DNA from: a virus
Strand: one strand, 5' to 3'
Length of the DNA: 40,880 nucleotides
Virus record (IMG/VR): IMGVR_UViG_3300030061_001881
Location: 1 to 40,880 of that record
Part shown: positions 4,326 to 39,805 of the stretch, piece by piece
Numbering within the stretch: position 1 is the stretch's first letter
How the letters are laid out: each line of letters begins with the position of its first letter
Notes under the pieces: model-generated
Database searches by the model: none
Seen by the model: only the letters and a program-made list of their open reading frames with translations
What the model was told of the DNA's origin: nothing
Translations under genes and position numbers: made by a program

Positions 4326-5270
4326 ATGGCGATGAGTATGCAACAGAAGAAACAATATGCAAAGATGAAGAAAGAAACTGCTAACGATGAGTGGTTCAAG
4401 AAACTAGAGAGTGCGATACAGGGTGAGAACTTGGCTTGGCGTAAGCCGTGGAAGGGTGGTAAGAGTAGTATGCCATCCAATCTAGTATCTAAGAAATCAT
4501 ATCGTGGTGGTAATCTAGTTATGCTTTGGATTGAAGCGATGACTAATGGTTGGACTGACCTACGGTTTGCTACACGTAAGCAGTTGATGGCTAAGAAAAT
4601 GTCAATCAAAGGCTTGAAGAATGGTACAGGTGTAAGCATCAAGTTCTTCAAACCTACTAAGTACACTAAGAAGAATGACGAGGGTGAGGAAGAAGAACAC
4701 TATGGTCGTACACTTAGATTCTATGAAGTGTTTTGTGTTGAACAATGTGAGGACTATGTTGCACCCGTTGTTGAGAATGCTGAAGAGATAATACCTACAT
4801 CAGAAATGATGGAACACATGGATGAATACGTAGCATCACAAGTCAATCTTGATTACTCAAGAGGTGGCGATAGAGCATACTATTCACCAGAACATGATAA
4901 GATTGTACTACCACCACATGATTCATTCGCTGACAGCATGGGTGAAGTGATGACCGCTATACATGAGGCAGTTCACTCCACTGGATATGCAACAAGACTA
5001 AATAGAAATCTCAAGTCTCGCTTTGGTTCGGCGGAGTATGCCTACGAGGAATTGATTGCTGAACTTGGTTCATTGATTGTTACACTTACTCTTGGTGGTG
5101 AGTTCAAGCCTGACTTGGTGGCCGAAGAGAATGCTAACAACGTAGCATACTTACAGTCATGGCTTAAGGCTTGCAAAGATAAAGACAAAGCATTGAACAA
5201 AGCGTTTGGTGATGCACAGAAAGCGGCTGACTACATACTGTCAGCGATACTAGGAGGTGAGGAAGAATGA
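4326..5270 (+). CDS. ardC: ArdC-type antirestriction protein
   Basis: 314 residues with the two-part layout of ArdC: an N-terminal ssDNA-binding region (about 20-145, with NLAWRKPW, YRGGNLVML and a Lys/Glu-rich loop before RTLRFYEVFCVEQ) and a C-terminal zincin-like metallopeptidase. The metal motif HEAVH is at 213-217, and a downstream YEELIAEL (Glu 241-242) could supply the third ligand. ArdC proteins on plasmids and phages protect incoming DNA from restriction, so a counter-defence role early in infection is inferred. The gene sits in a tightly coupled operon (ATGA overlap at the end) and has the usual length for the family. Confidence 0.88.
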   Translation: MAMSMQQKKQYAKMKKETANDEWFKKLESAIQGENLAWRKPWKGGKSSMPSNLVSKKSYRGGNLVMLWIEAMTNGWTDLRFATRKQLMAKKMSIKGLKNGTGVSIKFFKPTKYTKKNDEGEEEEHYGRTLRFYEVFCVEQCEDYVAPVVENAEEIIPTSEMMEHMDEYVASQVNLDYSRGGDRAYYSPEHDKIVLPPHDSFADSMGEVMTAIHEAVHSTGYATRLNRNLKSRFGSAEYAYEELIAELGSLIVTLTLGGEFKPDLVAEENANNVAYLQSWLKACKDKDKALNKAFGDAQKAADYILSAILGGEEE

Positions 5271-10281: not shown

Positions 10282-11970
10282 ATGGGTAAAGCGGAAAGAC
10301 AAGGGCAAAATAGTTGGCAAAGATATATTGATGCTGGTGTAGTTGAAAAGACTTTACTGTGGACTGATAATCCAATAAAAGTGGATAATACACTTGGTCG
10401 TACTAGAGATACTTTAGGTCTTTGTTGGCCTATCGATGCAGCAGTGGCATATACACTTGCTAATCATGGACCAAATGCGAAATTGACGTGGAGTGATATG
10501 GTAAATCAGAACACACGTATTGCTTCAGTGATGATGACGGGTGCAGTCGGTTACGGTAAATTACTTAACCCACTAAGTGTATCATGTGGTCATGATGAAG
10601 TAGATACTTACGATTATCATTTACCTGATATCGAACATCATTATGATGCAAACGGAAGAAAGATACTATGTTTTGCTACATCGGGTCGTTATGACCGTGT
10701 CTATGAGCCTGACATGCCATCAGAAATAAGGTCAATGCTTAGTGTAAGACTTACGGAAGACAAACCATCATGGTCAACCAACAACTACACTGTGCTTTGT
10801 CATCTTCGTGCATTACCTGAACTGTTTGATTGGTTGTGTGAAAGACATGGTGCAGACTTATTTTCTCTTGATGGTTTACAAACTCAGATGATAAAACAAC
10901 AGACAAAAGGTGTTTGTGGCTTTGCTGAAGATGACCCAAATCATGGTTTTTGTAGTCATCATGACGCTCCTATGAAAGAAGATTGGTACATGGTAAAGGA
11001 GTCAGATTCAAGTAGTGACTGGAAAACAATATGGTATAGAGGTAAAGGTGCAGTTGTACATAGTGGTTGGAACAAAGACCAATTCAGGTCAAGATATCTT
11101 ACACAACAACTCAAGAAATCACAGATTGTTGTATTTGATAGAGTGAAACGTGTAGCAGCACAAATGATACCTGAAGAGACTGTAATAAAACATGTCAAAG
11201 AATCATTGAATCGTATGAAAAATTGGGATGGTCGTTCTCTTGTCGAGAAGCATGGTCGTGGTAAAACGGCAACACATTGTTGGAACAGTTGGGAATGGCT
11301 TAACGAGATATCTGTTTGGGTTAGTGATACTCATAGTAAAAATAGACACGAAAACGATACTGCATGTAGGATTTGTTATGCGGCAGGTGAATCAGAAGAT
11401 GACACAGGTAAACCAATATGTAGATGTGGTGATGGATGGAAATATGTCAAGTACAGTAGTAAAAAATCATATGGTCATGAAATGGCTAAGTTTGAATGGC
11501 GACCTATTAAGCAACGTTCTGTATATGCTTTAGGTATTGGTCCTACAATACTGGGTAATTATATTTGTAATACTGCAAAAGAAGCAGCATACTATCGAGA
11601 CATGATTGTAAAGATGGCAACAAAAATGCCAGTTGCTAAGTTGAATAATAGAGTATGGGATTTGTCTAGTGGTCAAGAAGACATTGAGATACCAGCAGAT
11701 AGCAGTGGTATCACTGTTAGAGAGATAAAAGTTGATGTGAGGATGAAGTGGGATAAAAATCCTGAAGACTTACCTAATGCAGAGGAAATGAAAACGATGG
11801 TTATGTTTGGTAATCCTACTGAACAGAATGAAGCCTTTGATTTATGTAAACAAATAACCACCACAGGTAGAATAGATTCTAGTTGGAGTGAGAAAACTCA
11901 GAACATCGTACCGATGGTACTCAAAAATACAGCAGATAATGTAATGAATGAACAAACAGGAGAGAACTAA
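10282..11970 (+). CDS. Large orphan protein with Cys cluster (562 aa)
   Basis: Not recognised. The N-terminal 300 residues are rich in His and Asp (CGHDEVDTYDYH, then LPDIEHHYD) and aromatic residues. At 362-382 a cluster C-x2-C, fourteen residues, C-x-C (CRIC ... CRCGDGW) looks like a zinc knuckle inserted in a larger fold. The C-terminal 180 residues alternate strands and helices. It has no Walker or nuclease motif that I can see. It lies one base after the upstream stop and directly before the PPDK-like gene, so the two may act together. Confidence 0.72.
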   Translation: MGKAERQGQNSWQRYIDAGVVEKTLLWTDNPIKVDNTLGRTRDTLGLCWPIDAAVAYTLANHGPNAKLTWSDMVNQNTRIASVMMTGAVGYGKLLNPLSVSCGHDEVDTYDYHLPDIEHHYDANGRKILCFATSGRYDRVYEPDMPSEIRSMLSVRLTEDKPSWSTNNYTVLCHLRALPELFDWLCERHGADLFSLDGLQTQMIKQQTKGVCGFAEDDPNHGFCSHHDAPMKEDWYMVKESDSSSDWKTIWYRGKGAVVHSGWNKDQFRSRYLTQQLKKSQIVVFDRVKRVAAQMIPEETVIKHVKESLNRMKNWDGRSLVEKHGRGKTATHCWNSWEWLNEISVWVSDTHSKNRHENDTACRICYAAGESEDDTGKPICRCGDGWKYVKYSSKKSYGHEMAKFEWRPIKQRSVYALGIGPTILGNYICNTAKEAAYYRDMIVKMATKMPVAKLNNRVWDLSSGQEDIEIPADSSGITVREIKVDVRMKWDKNPEDLPNAEEMKTMVMFGNPTEQNEAFDLCKQITTTGRIDSSWSEKTQNIVPMVLKNTADNVMNEQTGEN

Positions 11971-11971
11971 G

Positions 11972-14353
11972 ATGGAAAAAGAATATGATGAAATGGATTT
12001 TAATGATTTATTTGACGTGCTAAAAGATGATGTTAAGGTAGACAGTGAGGTTAAAGAGGCAATCAATAAAGTCTCAAGCATTAAAGGAACAGTAAATCCT
12101 TCACGTACATCTCAAGTTGGGTCACAAAAGGCTAAGAGTTTCCTAAATTATGTAGATTTATGTAAGTCAGGACTAGGTAAATACAAGATACCTAATACTG
12201 AACTGATACTATTACAAGATGATTATGATATTGTATTGAGTGCTTTTGAAAGACTAGATGAGGAAAAAGGTTTTCTTAGAGCCTGTCCAGAAAATCCTAG
12301 ACATGGTGTCTTGGAAAGCATAGAAGTTTCAATGGGCAACTTGGAAGAAAGATGGAACTACCTGCGTGGTGTAATGTTAGAAGAAGACCCAAACGGTTGC
12401 ATGTTACTACAACCATTCATCCCTGCTACATCTAGCATGGTGGCTGTACCAAATGTGTATGCTTGGATTGGTCGTGACCATGATGGTATCACTGCTGGTA
12501 AGGATGGTGTAAAGATGTGTTACTTATTCAATCCAAATGAGAAGTCATGCACTAAACACTTTGAGACCATACATCATGCACCTAATACATATGAATTAGA
12601 ATATGTGTATCAGAAAGATGATAACTATCTGACAGAAATGTATGGTCATGGCACATCTCATCTAACACAGATAAGAGGTAGTGAACCACATACAGTTCGT
12701 GGTCCACCTTTTGTATACAACAGACTGATAGATGGTGAAACTGTTGAAACACTTTCTAAAGAGATGGGTGCAGTACCCAACGGTGTTGGTAAGATAGATG
12801 TCAAAGATGTATGGAGAACAGAAGGTTTGGAAGAACTAGCGTGGTTAGAGGCTAACATCACTAAGGATAAGATGCCTGAAGGTTTCGTTATATCTCATCC
12901 TAATGGTTCGTTAGGTAGCCATGTTTATGCACATTGTAGGTCACATGGTATACCTTATATTGTGGCTGAAGTATCTGTTGGTGATGTGTGGGTAGAAGGT
13001 AGCCCTACACATGTTGCTAAAGAAGAAGGACTTCCAATTGACCCTGACCCATACAATCCATATCTACCTGATGATATTACTGCTTTTGCTGATGGTTTAG
13101 AACGAAACAGAACACAGTGGCGTAGGCAACAAGGTTGGTTTGCACATTATTTCCACCAATGGTTATCAGGTTTCAATATGAATCCCAAACATAATGCACA
13201 TTTGAGTGGTGCATTTTGTGGTTGGTTGGTCAAGTCAGCAGTTGGTTTATGTTTTGGTGAGTTAAGACATGCTTTTGGTATGAAGACTGATATGTCGATA
13301 GAGTTTACTCCAGCGATTGTAGCAGCAATAGGTAGTAGTAAGTTCGTTGAACTTCATGATAAAGTATCACCTAGTAAAGACCGTAAGCACTATTATCTTG
13401 CATTGGAAGGTTACGAATTGACTTATGAGGAAATGGAAAAAGCATTACGATGGTGTGGTAAACAATTCCAAACTGGTTGGCCGCAAAAGAATTTTGGTGG
13501 TAAAAAATGGGCTGAATGTGCTTTTGGTGTTGCTGATTTAGCATCAGCGATTATAAAGTTCAATAAAGATAAAAATGAATCTAACATACAAAAAGTTACT
13601 ACACTTGCAAACATAGTAGAAAGTTATGCACATAACACTGGTAATTTGTATAATAAATTCTTGGAGAAGACAGCATTCGATTACGGAACACTAAATGAAT
13701 CAGACAGTGTTATAGGTTGGTTTGCTCATGAGCAAAAAGATTTGAATAGAATGTTCAAGACTTACGAAGTGACTCGTACATTCTTGGAAGAGACATTTAC
13801 TACGACTAGACCGGAGAATGATTGGTACGAATTGTTTGATTACTTGTTGAAGAAATCAACAATGAGTTACAAACATACACCTATCTGTAGTAATCAAGTA
13901 CACAAACCCTTGCAAGTTACTGCTAATCTTTTAGGCCCAAAATGGTTACATCACGATACGAAGTACACTTTGAATGATGATTACTTCATACCATGCGGCC
14001 ATGACGATTGTACGATTTGCGATGAAAAAGATATAATTACAGTGTCACTAGGAATGGATAATCAACTTACTTCTATGTTGCTTGCTGATGAAGCACCTTC
14101 GATTTTCTTTGCACTAGAACACAACAAATCGAAACTTATTACATACAGAGTGGCTCAAATGATAAAACAAAAAGAATACGATGATGTAGATACTAAGATG
14201 TTTGTTGAGGCTTGGAATGGATTAGACAGGGAAGACCCGATGTACAAAGTGTTGGCTCGTATGTTGAAAAAGCAACTCAAGAAAAAGATTGCCACAGATG
14301 AGGATTGGACTAATGAAGTAACTACTACAATAGCAGGGAGTGATTTAGAATGA
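11972..14353 (+). CDS. PPDK/PEP-synthase-like protein with phosphohistidine swivel domain (793 aa)
   Basis: ATG 11972 follows AGGAG; an in-frame ATG at 11948 lies inside the preceding gene. Residues about 100-240 resemble the second half of a PPDK-type ATP-grasp domain: R103ACPENPRHGVLES, MLLQPFIPA from 144, and ELEYVY ... LTQIRG (Gln 233) like the family's EWA ... VQxRP end. Residues about 290-345 (PEGFVISHPNGSLGSHVYAH, then CRSHGIPYIV) match the swivel-domain pattern T/G-SH-x-A-x-x-x-R-x-x-G-IP-x-V, which places His317 where the family carries its phosphohistidine. Known relatives (PPDK, PEP synthase, rifampin phosphotransferase) move phosphate from ATP through this His. The last 440 residues are unrecognised and contain CGHDDCTIC. 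Substrate unknown. The call rests on motif reading and has no alignment behind it. Confidence 0.55.
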   Translation: MEKEYDEMDFNDLFDVLKDDVKVDSEVKEAINKVSSIKGTVNPSRTSQVGSQKAKSFLNYVDLCKSGLGKYKIPNTELILLQDDYDIVLSAFERLDEEKGFLRACPENPRHGVLESIEVSMGNLEERWNYLRGVMLEEDPNGCMLLQPFIPATSSMVAVPNVYAWIGRDHDGITAGKDGVKMCYLFNPNEKSCTKHFETIHHAPNTYELEYVYQKDDNYLTEMYGHGTSHLTQIRGSEPHTVRGPPFVYNRLIDGETVETLSKEMGAVPNGVGKIDVKDVWRTEGLEELAWLEANITKDKMPEGFVISHPNGSLGSHVYAHCRSHGIPYIVAEVSVGDVWVEGSPTHVAKEEGLPIDPDPYNPYLPDDITAFADGLERNRTQWRRQQGWFAHYFHQWLSGFNMNPKHNAHLSGAFCGWLVKSAVGLCFGELRHAFGMKTDMSIEFTPAIVAAIGSSKFVELHDKVSPSKDRKHYYLALEGYELTYEEMEKALRWCGKQFQTGWPQKNFGGKKWAECAFGVADLASAIIKFNKDKNESNIQKVTTLANIVESYAHNTGNLYNKFLEKTAFDYGTLNESDSVIGWFAHEQKDLNRMFKTYEVTRTFLEETFTTTRPENDWYELFDYLLKKSTMSYKHTPICSNQVHKPLQVTANLLGPKWLHHDTKYTLNDDYFIPCGHDDCTICDEKDIITVSLGMDNQLTSMLLADEAPSIFFALEHNKSKLITYRVAQMIKQKEYDDVDTKMFVEAWNGLDREDPMYKVLARMLKKQLKKKIATDEDWTNEVTTTIAGSDLE

Positions 14354-15510
14354 ATAAAATGAATTGTCATACAGGTAATCCTCTAGTGTTTGAAACGACT
14401 GATGGTGTAAGAGTATACGCTGGCGGTAATACACGTAACGGTGGTTGGATGAAGATGAAACCACTGCCCGACTTAGCAATTGGTCCACAAGGTGTCATCC
14501 GTGTTGCACGTAGTTTTGACAACATACCTGATGGTTTCACTTGTGTCAACCATGTACAATCACCAAATGCTCCACACATTATTGAATTAGAGTGGCCTGA
14601 TTTCGATATACCTAGCAACGTAGGTAGAGAGTTTTGGGTATCGCTTGTTGCTGATGTAAAGGCTAAAGGTATCAAATCTATCTCTTGTCAATGTATGGGT
14701 GGTCATGGTCGTACTGGTGTACAGTTGGCTATCTTTGCACACCTTATGATTGAGAAGAAGAATCAAACATGGAAAGATGCAGGTGAGTTGATACAATGGG
14801 TAAGGAACAGTTATTGTACACATGCAGTAGAAGCCAAATCACAACAAGAGTACATATCAACAGTATGTCAAATACCATTTGGAGAAAATAAGGTAGAAAC
14901 GTTATCGAGTGGTACATCATTTGATTGGGATAGCATAAAAGTAAATTCTTTCGATGCTGATGAAATTGAGATAGAGAGTGTTGGTAGTAAAAGTAAGAAG
15001 AAAAAACAAGTAGGTAAGAATTATTTTACTAGCGACAAAGGTAAACCTAAGACAATACCTAACACTCACATCAAGGGTTATGCCTTATACTGGTGTGATG
15101 TTTGTGCTCACTACGAATTCAGAACTAATAAGGTATCAGATGCCAAGTTACCTTGTAGTGTATGTGGTAACATAGATGCGATGCATGAGGTAGGTGAAAT
15201 GACTTTGGATGATGATAACTATGATGAGTTCACAGAGAAATGTGAAGCAACAGGTAATATGTTTCATCCAATTGAAATGCACAATGGTGTCAGTAAAATG
15301 TACATCATAGAGAAAGAAAAACCTAAACAGTTACGAATAGAAAAAGGTGGTATGAGATGGCAAGACAGACGATTCAAATGTGAGATAACTAATAGGATTA
15401 GACCACTTGCATTTGTGAGTATAGAAGATGATGGTATATACTCAACTGAAGTTGTGATTGAACGTAGAAAGGAAACGAAAAAAATAGAGAGGAAGTTAAA
15501 TGATTGGTAA
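14350..15510 (+). CDS. PTP/dual-specificity-type phosphatase with zinc ribbon (386 aa)
   Basis: Residues 113-123 contain CQCMGGHGRTG. Cys115 and Arg121 form the C-x5-R loop of Cys-based phosphatases, with the usual Thr-Gly after Arg; a helix (VQLAIFAHLMI) follows as in the family. An Asp about 25 residues earlier (WPDFDIP) could be the general acid. After a Lys-rich linker, CDVC ... CSVC (about 248-280) forms a zinc ribbon. The N-terminal 90 residues and the last 90 are unassigned. Its start overlaps the stop of the PPDK-like gene, so the two are co-translated; a combined phosphotransfer role is inferred. The phosphatase fold is well supported; the substrate is unknown. Confidence 0.78.
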   Translation: MNKMNCHTGNPLVFETTDGVRVYAGGNTRNGGWMKMKPLPDLAIGPQGVIRVARSFDNIPDGFTCVNHVQSPNAPHIIELEWPDFDIPSNVGREFWVSLVADVKAKGIKSISCQCMGGHGRTGVQLAIFAHLMIEKKNQTWKDAGELIQWVRNSYCTHAVEAKSQQEYISTVCQIPFGENKVETLSSGTSFDWDSIKVNSFDADEIEIESVGSKSKKKKQVGKNYFTSDKGKPKTIPNTHIKGYALYWCDVCAHYEFRTNKVSDAKLPCSVCGNIDAMHEVGEMTLDDDNYDEFTEKCEATGNMFHPIEMHNGVSKMYIIEKEKPKQLRIEKGGMRWQDRRFKCEITNRIRPLAFVSIEDDGIYSTEVVIERRKETKKIERKLNDW

Positions 15511-16877: not shown

Positions 16878-17047
16878 TGAATAATGAGAAAATGAAATTA
16901 GGAAGTATATGGAGAAAAGATACAGGCTGGACTTTGTTGGAATGGAATTGGGCTGATGAAGATATGTGCTTAGTACACATGGAGTACAATGATATTGACA
17001 AAGGTAAACAGTTGTTTGTAGGATATTTGAAGGAGGTAGTAGAATGA
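16877..17047 (+). CDS. Unknown small protein (56 aa)
   Basis: ATG 16877 shares its A with the preceding TGA, and the stop overlaps the next ATG. The sequence is Trp-rich (IWRKDTGWTLLEWNWADED) with later beta-like residues. No family recognised. AAGGAGG near its end is the ribosome site of the next gene. Confidence 0.6.
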   Translation: MNNEKMKLGSIWRKDTGWTLLEWNWADEDMCLVHMEYNDIDKGKQLFVGYLKEVVE

Positions 17048-17553
17048 ATATATTTGTACTAGACGAAAACCCAGTGAAGGCAGCACAGGCGATGGACTGT
17101 GTGAGAGTGCCGAAGATGATTGTTGAGTCAGCACAGATGATGGCATCAGCCTTGCGTAGACATGGTGCTACTGATGAGCAGATGCCACTGACTAAGAGTG
17201 GCACGCCCTACAAAGGTGGCTACAAGCATCACCCATGCACAGTTTGGGCAGGAGATAGTCAAGAGAATTGGATGTGGCTTGCTCATCATGCTATGCAGTT
17301 ATGTGAGGAATACTACAAACGCTTCAACAAGATGCATGGATGCACTGACGCTATCTATCACATGATAGGTATACAGAAGGTAATCCCTGACGCTACTCTC
17401 ACACCATTCGCACAGGCTATGCCTGATGAATACAAAGATGATGATGCAGTCAAAGCCTATCGTGCCTATTATCACAGCAAAATACACAGTAAAGGTGGTG
17501 TGCATTACAGACACACAAGCCCACCTGACTGGTGGATAGGGGTGACAGCATGA
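17044..17553 (+). CDS. Conserved phage-type protein of the MNIFVLD family (169 aa)
   Basis: The start MNIFVLDENPVKAAQAM, then KMIVESAQMM, then HHPCTVWAGDS and a Trp/His-rich helix (WLAHHAMQLCEEY) follow a family I recall from T4-like and other phages, with conserved Lys-Met near the start and HPCxxW in the middle. Some members carry annotations as DNA-repair glycosylase-like, which I cannot confirm. The gene looks GC-richer than its neighbours (30 of 60 bases at 17101-17160 against 17 of 60 at 18601-18660), which hints at more recent acquisition. Confidence 0.78.
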   Translation: MNIFVLDENPVKAAQAMDCVRVPKMIVESAQMMASALRRHGATDEQMPLTKSGTPYKGGYKHHPCTVWAGDSQENWMWLAHHAMQLCEEYYKRFNKMHGCTDAIYHMIGIQKVIPDATLTPFAQAMPDEYKDDDAVKAYRAYYHSKIHSKGGVHYRHTSPPDWWIGVTA

Positions 17554-38311: not shown

Positions 38312-39805
38312 ATGAAAGATGAAAGAATGAACCCCTTACAAAATAATATAAGAGCAGCAAGAACGATTGTAGATACTGTCAAAAGTACACTTGGTCCAAT
38401 GGGTCGAGATAAGATGATGGTTGATGCTGGTGGTGATACAATAATCACCAATGATGGTGCAACAATACTAAGAGAATTAGATGTTAGTCACCCCGGTGCA
38501 AAAATGATGGTTGATATTGCTAAAACGCAAGAAGCATTGTGTTATGATGGTACAACATCTACTGTAATACTGGCAGGTCAATTATTAGCAGATTCAGAAA
38601 ATCTTTTCACAAAAGGATTACATCCCAACTTAGTATGTAAAGGATATAATCAAGCGGCTACTATGGCTATTGACTTCTTAGATAATCGACTATCTTATGA
38701 AGCAAATGAGCAAGAAATATTACAAATAGCAAAAACCTCTGTTACTGGAAAAACATTAGAAGCAGCAATAGACCAAGTGTCTAAACTATGTGTTGAAGCA
38801 GTTAATGTCGCAGGGAGTGCAGATAAAGTGAAAGTTGTTGGATTGGCTGGTGGTGCATTATCTGATTCTTATTTCTTCAACGGTGTTGTAGTCAACAAAG
38901 ATTTTGTTTATGAAGTACAGGAAGAAAATCTTTCTAATGTTATATTACTTAACACTGGTTTAGAACCTGTAAAGAGAGAAGAAAATGTTACAGTGCAAGT
39001 AGATATGAAAGGTTACAATGCATTTAAGAAAAGTGACACAGATGATTTACTCACACAAGCAAAAAGAATTGGTAATATGTTACCAAATGGTGGTGTGGTG
39101 TTCATTAGAGATGGAGTTACCGATGATGTTGCTGCTTACTTAGCAAAACAAAATATAGCAATTGTTAGAAGAGTACCTGAATCATCAATGAAAGCATTAG
39201 GATTAGCATTAGGTTCTCGTATAGCACAGACTCCTGATGATATAGAGAATGTGATTTCAGGTCTAATAAAAAGAAAGACGTTTAATGAAATAAATTATTT
39301 ATTCGTTAGTGGAAAAGTTGAATCTAATCAGTCAACATTAATTTTGAGAGGAGCAACAAGTTCAACTCTTGATGAAGTCGCTCGTGGTTTTGATGATGCA
39401 TTAGGCGTAGTGTCTTTGGTATTAAATGGAGGGAAAATTGTTACAGGTGGTGGGTCTACATATGCGGCTTTGGCTAATCATTTGAGAATGAAGGCTAATA
39501 CTGTCGAGGGTAGAGCACAGATGGCTATTAACGCATTTGCAGATTCTTTAGAAATACTACCAGCAACTATAGCGGAGAACGCAGGACACGACCCATTGGA
39601 TGTAATTCTCGATATGAGACACGCTATATCAGATGGCGACTATCATATGGGTGTTAATGTAGAAGAGGGTGGTATTACAAATATGTTGGAAGGTGGTGTT
39701 GTTGAACCCTGCGATTTGGTAAGACAAGCAATTCTTAGTGCAACTGAAGTTACAACTGCAATATTAAAAATTGACGATATTATTGCAAAAAGAGGCATAG
39801 AGTGA
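38312..39805 (+). CDS. Thermosome subunit (group II chaperonin)
   Basis: 497 residues, somewhat shorter than host thermosome subunits (about 540). Diagnostic motifs are TLGPMGRDKMMVD, TNDGATIL, and D79GTTS in the ATPase domain, and VTGGGSTYAAL in the C-terminal equatorial part. The apical and intermediate domains are present but have diverged. Group II chaperonins fold proteins in an ATP-driven double ring. A virus copy could fold abundant virion proteins or mix with host subunits. Group II chaperonin is, to my knowledge, a reported magrovirus feature. Confidence 0.93.
   Translation: MKDERMNPLQNNIRAARTIVDTVKSTLGPMGRDKMMVDAGGDTIITNDGATILRELDVSHPGAKMMVDIAKTQEALCYDGTTSTVILAGQLLADSENLFTKGLHPNLVCKGYNQAATMAIDFLDNRLSYEANEQEILQIAKTSVTGKTLEAAIDQVSKLCVEAVNVAGSADKVKVVGLAGGALSDSYFFNGVVVNKDFVYEVQEENLSNVILLNTGLEPVKREENVTVQVDMKGYNAFKKSDTDDLLTQAKRIGNMLPNGGVVFIRDGVTDDVAAYLAKQNIAIVRRVPESSMKALGLALGSRIAQTPDDIENVISGLIKRKTFNEINYLFVSGKVESNQSTLILRGATSSTLDEVARGFDDALGVVSLVLNGGKIVTGGGSTYAALANHLRMKANTVEGRAQMAINAFADSLEILPATIAENAGHDPLDVILDMRHAISDGDYHMGVNVEEGGITNMLEGGVVEPCDLVRQAILSATEVTTAILKIDDIIAKRGIE

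Follow-up and report, generated by a model that had tools for sequence, protein, structure and literature searches.

A dikinase-like viral protein with a conserved helical domain, HNNG, and a linked cysteine phosphatase

The dikinase-like gene and its partner phosphatase

The window analysed here, the 40,880 nucleotides of IMG/VR virus record IMGVR_UViG_3300030061_001881, carries a dikinase-like gene directly followed by a gene for a cysteine phosphatase (Table 1). The longest frame of the dikinase-like gene spans 11948-14353 and encodes 801 residues; the start at 11972 chosen in the first-pass annotation is preferred to the one at 11948, because the AGGAGAG motif precedes that ATG. Residues are numbered here from 11948, so that subtracting 8 gives the earlier numbering and H325 corresponds to the earlier His317. 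The upstream gene (10282-11970) stops one base before the ATG, and the phosphatase gene begins at 14350. The open reading frame proposed in the first pass is real, with homologues that retain its key residues, and its residue pattern is confirmed as being above chance. The 562-residue product of the upstream gene (P0002) gives a weak Zn-ribbon match; since it has a relative in 16 of 37 loci, yet does not adjoin all phosphatase pairs, it seems to belong to the lineage backbone and to lie outside the module.

Table 1. Features of the dikinase-like gene, its product P0001 and the partner phosphatase P0003 in the window.
Feature	Position	Strand	Evidence and remarks
Shine-Dalgarno-like AGGAGAG	11958..11964	+	7 nt upstream of ATG 11972; read directly
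Dikinase-like gene, protein P0001	11972..14353	+	793 aa from ATG 11972; 26 homologues
ATP-grasp domain, aa 58-252	12119..12703	+	AF2 model, PDB structure matches, conservation; invariant K61, R111, E218, Q241, R243
Phosphohistidine swivel domain, aa 285-360	12800..13027	+	Structural alignment, profile alignment, PF00391 matches in family
H325 (earlier His317), candidate phosphohistidine	12920..12922	+	Invariant 26/26; aligned to TSHAA His of PPDK
HNNG domain, aa 374-580, all-helical, motifs GExRH, GGxxW, HN[NT]GxxxxK	13067..13687	+	hhalign to standalone phage family, alignment, model
Lineage-specific C-terminal tail, aa 581-801	13688..14350	+	No counterpart in shorter homologues P0012 (551 aa), P0013 and L046 protein
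Cys cluster C683/C688/C691, in tail	13994..14020	+	Read directly; kept in at least 60% of relatives
Partner cysteine phosphatase, DSP/PTP type, P0003, 386 aa	14350..15510	+	phrog_17568 E 1.1e-14, Y_phosphatase E 0.0015; start overlaps dikinase stop by 4 bp
D84 of phosphatase, likely WPD-loop general acid	14599..14601	+	Invariant 30/30
Phosphatase P-loop CMGGHGRTG (C115, R121)	14692..14718	+	C115 and G118-G123 (GHGRTG) invariant 30/30

The Y_phosphatase match of P0003 lies just under the Pfam gathering score; the protein has both the Cx5R P-loop and the general-acid aspartate of the DSP/PTP cysteine phosphatases, and D84, C115 and R121 are invariant in all 30 phosphatases compared. The gene after the dikinase carries C-x-x-G-H-G-R-T-G in the window and in every fused-form viral locus examined, a set that includes near-duplicates. 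The PHROG name of the phosphatase family phrog_17568, 'thymidylate synthase', was rejected: the family is a Cx5R phosphatase, and PF00303 is absent from 24 of 25 records. DLP3_141 (locus L012, 7493-8269) is a member of this family, and deposited phage annotations use the PHROG name as well.

Predicted ATP-grasp and swivel domains

Taken alone, the dikinase protein has no significant sequence match in Pfam, NCBIfam, PHROGs or the PDB (the single PHROG match is at chance level, E 0.19), and a single-sequence query against IMG/VR and plasmids returned no relatives. Homologues with 18-67% identity were recovered through a weak match in Manatee Spring phages, followed by alignment-based IMG/VR searches. 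Across the 26 homologues, down to about 21% identity, Q60, K61, R111, P114, G120, S124, G180, T182, E218, Q241, R243 and H325 are kept, and the candidate catalytic set K61, R111, E218, Q241, R243 and H325 is invariant in all 26 aligned sequences. By analogy, these residues read like the PPDK motifs GGK, VRS, E..Q.R and SH, which suggests a putative catalytic role for each of them.

An AlphaFold2 model built from the 26-member alignment (m09c396a950eb; mean pLDDT 84.9, pTM 0.78) displays an ATP-grasp fold at about residues 60-252, followed by a swivel fold bearing H325. The top PDB match of this model in Foldseek is the rifampin phosphotransferase (RPH) 5hv1 (E 5.8e-4), with many ATP-grasp enzymes next and probabilities for ATP-grasp matches of up to 1.00. 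With VIA-align, both domains are spanned by RPH 5hv3 (Z 8.7, 276 residues, 4.2 A, model residues 33-360) and by PPDK 1dik (Z 7.7, 270 residues, 6.1 A, model residues 42-372), whereas biotin carboxylase, ranked over RPH, covers the ATP-grasp domain only (Z 9.7); by the guidance given with the tool, Z values in the range 7.7-9.7 count as modest. Because of these modest values and of the rank of biotin carboxylase, 'ATP-grasp' is a firmer label than 'PPDK-type', and the fold assignment draws on the agreement of structure, motifs and gene linkage. The protein combines the ATP-grasp nucleotide-binding domain (predicted fold, Foldseek and VIA matches) and the swivel domain with a candidate catalytic histidine that characterize the PPDK/PEP synthase/RPH superfamily. 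Structure prediction had been proposed as a check in the first-pass annotation, and it returned both folds rather than neither; the PPDK/PEP-synthase-like phosphotransferase core claimed there is supported, as RPH and PPDK align with the model over both domains. The annotation had seen only the end of an ATP-grasp domain; such a domain is indeed present, but as a compact and complete unit.

At the sequence level, the PF01326 profile fails to reach the ATP-grasp region in the Pfam search. PF00391 is matched within the family, with a best E value of 0.0097 among its members and, in homologue P0014, an E value of 0.057 over residues 311-332. By hhalign, H325 falls weakly on the TSHAA histidine of a phage PPDK (E 0.016, probability 2.9%); the link is confined to the swivel, none being found for the ATP-grasp region, and a global hhalign against the phage PPDK failed. 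A low-stringency alignment also pairs ELEYV...TQIR of the window protein with VEYTI...LQVR of the phage PPDK. The histidine singled out in the first pass as a candidate phosphohistidine is both invariant and placed, by a weak profile alignment, on its PPDK counterpart.

RPH (5hv1/5hv3) is the best structural match over both domains, sharing the ATP-grasp and swivel His domains and having no pyruvate barrel. In RPH, a drug-binding domain is placed between the ATP-grasp and His domains. In the window protein, by contrast, the His domain comes after a short beta linker, about 30 residues past the ATP-grasp domain, and HNNG is last; the inserted drug-binding domain of RPH proper (NF041857) is not seen in the model, and NCBIfam gives no match. 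PPDK (PF01326 + PF00391; 1dik) also has an ATP-grasp domain and then a swivel, with its TSHAA histidine aligned to H325. It differs in that the window ATP-grasp domain is too diverged for Pfam and in that HNNG stands in place of the pyruvate-binding C-terminal half; the C-terminal PF02896 of PPDK proper (TIGR01828) gives no Pfam match, and in the model the C-terminal half of the window protein consists of the helical HNNG domain and the tail.

The HNNG domain in fused, split and bacterial forms

We use the name HNNG for the conserved all-helical domain that follows the swivel. It aligns with the standalone phage family phrog_20946 (hhalign 96.9%, E 1.3e-10) and has the motif set of that family, RExRH / GGxxW / HN[NT]GxxFNK; homologue P0011 matches phrog_20946 directly in a PHROG search (E 0.0069). 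E438, R440, H441, G517, G518, W521, H562, N563, G565 and K570 do not vary among seven proteins that represent the fused, standalone and bacterial forms. HNNG is a conserved domain unit that also exists as a separate phage protein. Modelled alone it reaches a pLDDT of 81.4, and a structure search gave no clear PDB match, an absence that is not proof of a new fold; matches to GPCRs and talin (Z up to 6.2) were discounted as similarity of a generic helical-bundle kind. What had been described as 440 unknown residues therefore includes about 200 that form a widespread domain, the rest being the lineage-specific tail. The Cys cluster noted with them does exist, but it is located in the tail, outside the conserved C-terminal domain, and only some members of the family have the tail with this cluster.

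A PPDK-like protein is encoded in each of the 39 complete phage records that have a standalone HNNG protein, usually with tyrosine/dual-specificity phosphatases alongside, and 33 of the 39 are also matched by the phosphatase query P0010. Among 80 further IMG/VR loci, which include some near-duplicates, the phosphatase motif was found in 79 and the PPDK motif in 69; the remaining loci, L108 excepted, are truncated at a contig end. The split form in these loci is usually arranged PPDK - X - DSP1 - HNNG - DSP2. Only two gene families recur throughout a set of 37 loci: HNNG, in all 37, and the phosphatase, in 36 by BLAST. In Vibrio SIO-2-like phages, DLP3 and RHph_TM16, the three functions are clustered as in the window, as separate genes (phrog_18609, phrog_20946 and phrog_17568). 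The dikinase of these phages has a canonical PPDK N-half and is a protein on its own; that of the window virus is compact and joined to HNNG in one chain. Seven fused-form viruses, that of the window among them, gave no separate PF01326 (PPDK_N) gene; some of their records may be incomplete. The fused or split set is widespread in phages and mostly unrecognised; it went unmentioned in the literature searched on magroviruses, jumbo phages and viral NAD systems.

HNNG is also found in bacteria. A 786-residue fusion from a Candidatus Obscuribacter MAG (L057) joins a canonical PPDK_N (6.3e-36), a PEP-utilizers domain (1e-21) and HNNG (1.4e-14), and of 117 genomes from the class of this organism, 9 have HNNG in large open frames. 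No phosphatase was seen next to the bacterial HNNG fusions in the short loci available. A small conserved protein with a MAGTEGTG motif adjoins bacterial PPDK-HNNG fusions (L144 2142-2714, also L140, L143, L146 and L149) and has no NCBIfam match. The 595 kb phage LR756511 encodes two tandem HNNG proteins of 949 and 694 residues (L055 4335-9280) and no PPDK_N match by Pfam, which shows that a recognisable dikinase need not accompany HNNG.

A candidate phosphorylation module and its possible targets

The analysis established predicted ATP-grasp and swivel folds, candidate catalytic residues that do not vary, HNNG as a conserved unit, a phosphatase whose motifs are intact, and consistent gene linkage; on this basis we consider that the window protein is probably a histidine phosphotransferase of the PPDK/rifampin-phosphotransferase kind, with HNNG as its acceptor site and paired with the phosphatase. 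In PPDK and RPH, ATP phosphorylates the swivel histidine, which then phosphorylates the acceptor. By analogy, the compact ATP-grasp domain would move a phosphate from ATP to H325, and the swivel domain would then turn and deliver it to whatever acceptor the C-terminal HNNG domain binds. HNNG would thereby take the role filled by the pyruvate-binding barrel in PPDK and by the rifampin-binding domain in RPH. The phosphatase encoded by the neighbouring gene may take off the phosphate or trim the product, giving a phosphorylation/dephosphorylation module. As an acceptor site HNNG is the leading candidate, because it holds the position of the PPDK acceptor domain when fused and accompanies a truncated PPDK when split; as HNNG is without a clear structural match, it is architecture and linkage that point to this role. 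Catalysis, acceptor binding by HNNG and the action of the phosphatase on the same product are what we infer from these data. HNNG would then offer this well-studied class of enzymes a candidate for a new acceptor domain.

Plants pair glucan water dikinase (GWD), a His-dikinase, with the DSP-type phosphatases SEX4/LSF2 in reversible phosphorylation. The likeness to the viral pair is in logic only, with no homology to GWD or to starch-binding modules shown. The chances seem about even that a previously unrecognised viral phosphorylation system is at hand, made of a phosphohistidine dikinase, HNNG as a new acceptor domain and cysteine phosphatases of its own, which unrelated viruses carry either fused or as four genes in a cassette and which acts on a macromolecule or signal not known as a dikinase substrate.

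The nucleotide and the drug-like compound named as possible substrates in the first-pass annotation are conjectural. Two substrate-specific versions of the phosphotransferase explanation were weighed. A reversible switch acting on a host protein, a nucleotide signal or a defence molecule, and hence possibly serving counter-defence, would be in keeping with the pairing of a kinase and a phosphatase, the split form often having a second phosphatase, and with the broad distribution over unrelated viruses. However, HNNG-PPDK fusions are present in bacterial genomes too, and the window pair and the split PPDK are unmatched in PADLOC, the one weak match being to a CARF model (E 0.0011) on P0009, outside the HNNG motifs; we regard this target as doubtful. 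Membership in a known anti-phage defence system was set aside, PADLOC having given no match of note. In the second version, the dikinase would (pyro)phosphorylate a modified base, with HNNG recognising DNA and the phosphatase trimming the product, and the genome would thus be shielded from restriction. DLP3, a carrier of the split system, has DNA that withstands all 15 restriction enzymes tried on it (PMC7326821). In each of 10 loci the split cassette has DNA polymerase I nearby, and dcd or dUTPase is found upstream in two Vibrio phages. Yet a glycosyltransferase of DLP3 could account for its resistance, restriction data for other phages were not found in the literature searched, and the usual hydroxymethyl-dU route is not visible, since 24 of 25 records have no thymidylate-synthase homologue. 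DNA modification is thus a possible but weakly supported substrate route, and one that we consider unlikely.

A generic ATP-grasp ligase of the peptide or amino-acid type, with an unrelated beta domain and a structural H325, would explain why biotin carboxylase and D-Ala ligases stand high in the structure search; it is quite improbable given that a swivel domain with an invariant histidine comes next, that RPH and PPDK align across both domains and that HNNG is elsewhere fused or linked to bona fide PPDK N-halves. Least probable is an auxiliary metabolic enzyme making or consuming phosphoenolpyruvate, as assumed for the split phage genes, which match PPDK_N at 1e-42 to 4e-50 and are described as PPDK metabolic genes (PMC12038007, PMC10141217, PMC9229204): the pyruvate-binding half (PF02896) is undetected in the window protein, three phage PPDKs and L057, a split phage PPDK matches TIGR01828 only at profile positions 3-503 of 865 (450 bits vs a cut-off of 843), L057 is homologous to solved PPDK no further than the swivel (residue 488 of 874), and a metabolic gene would have no need of HNNG and phosphatases alongside. 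One of these studies (PMC12038007) reports a barrel in the phage PPDK from its own model.

The PPDK-like, HNNG and phosphatase genes, then, form one system, and an ordinary pyruvate dikinase is unlikely. The published 'PPDK metabolic gene' naming is doubtful because the pyruvate-binding half is missing; in the phage papers the split version is presented as a metabolic gene for pyruvate dikinase and the HNNG gene next to it is left 'hypothetical', while PHROGs calls the phosphatase a 'thymidylate synthase'. Workers on culturable Vibrio and Stenotrophomonas phages gain a cassette that is amenable to deletion and assay.

The host is probably archaeal, as assumed in the first-pass annotation; this fits other genes of the window virus, which encodes a group II (thermosome-type) chaperonin (38312-39805; best PDB matches archaeal-type), a PolB, an AAA clamp loader and an ERCC4 nuclease. 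The window also contains an ArdC N-terminal domain joined to an MPTase-PolyVal metallopeptidase (4326-5270), a known anti-restriction architecture, and a pyrimidine-dimer DNA glycosylase (17044-17553; Pyr_excise, E 2.8e-7).
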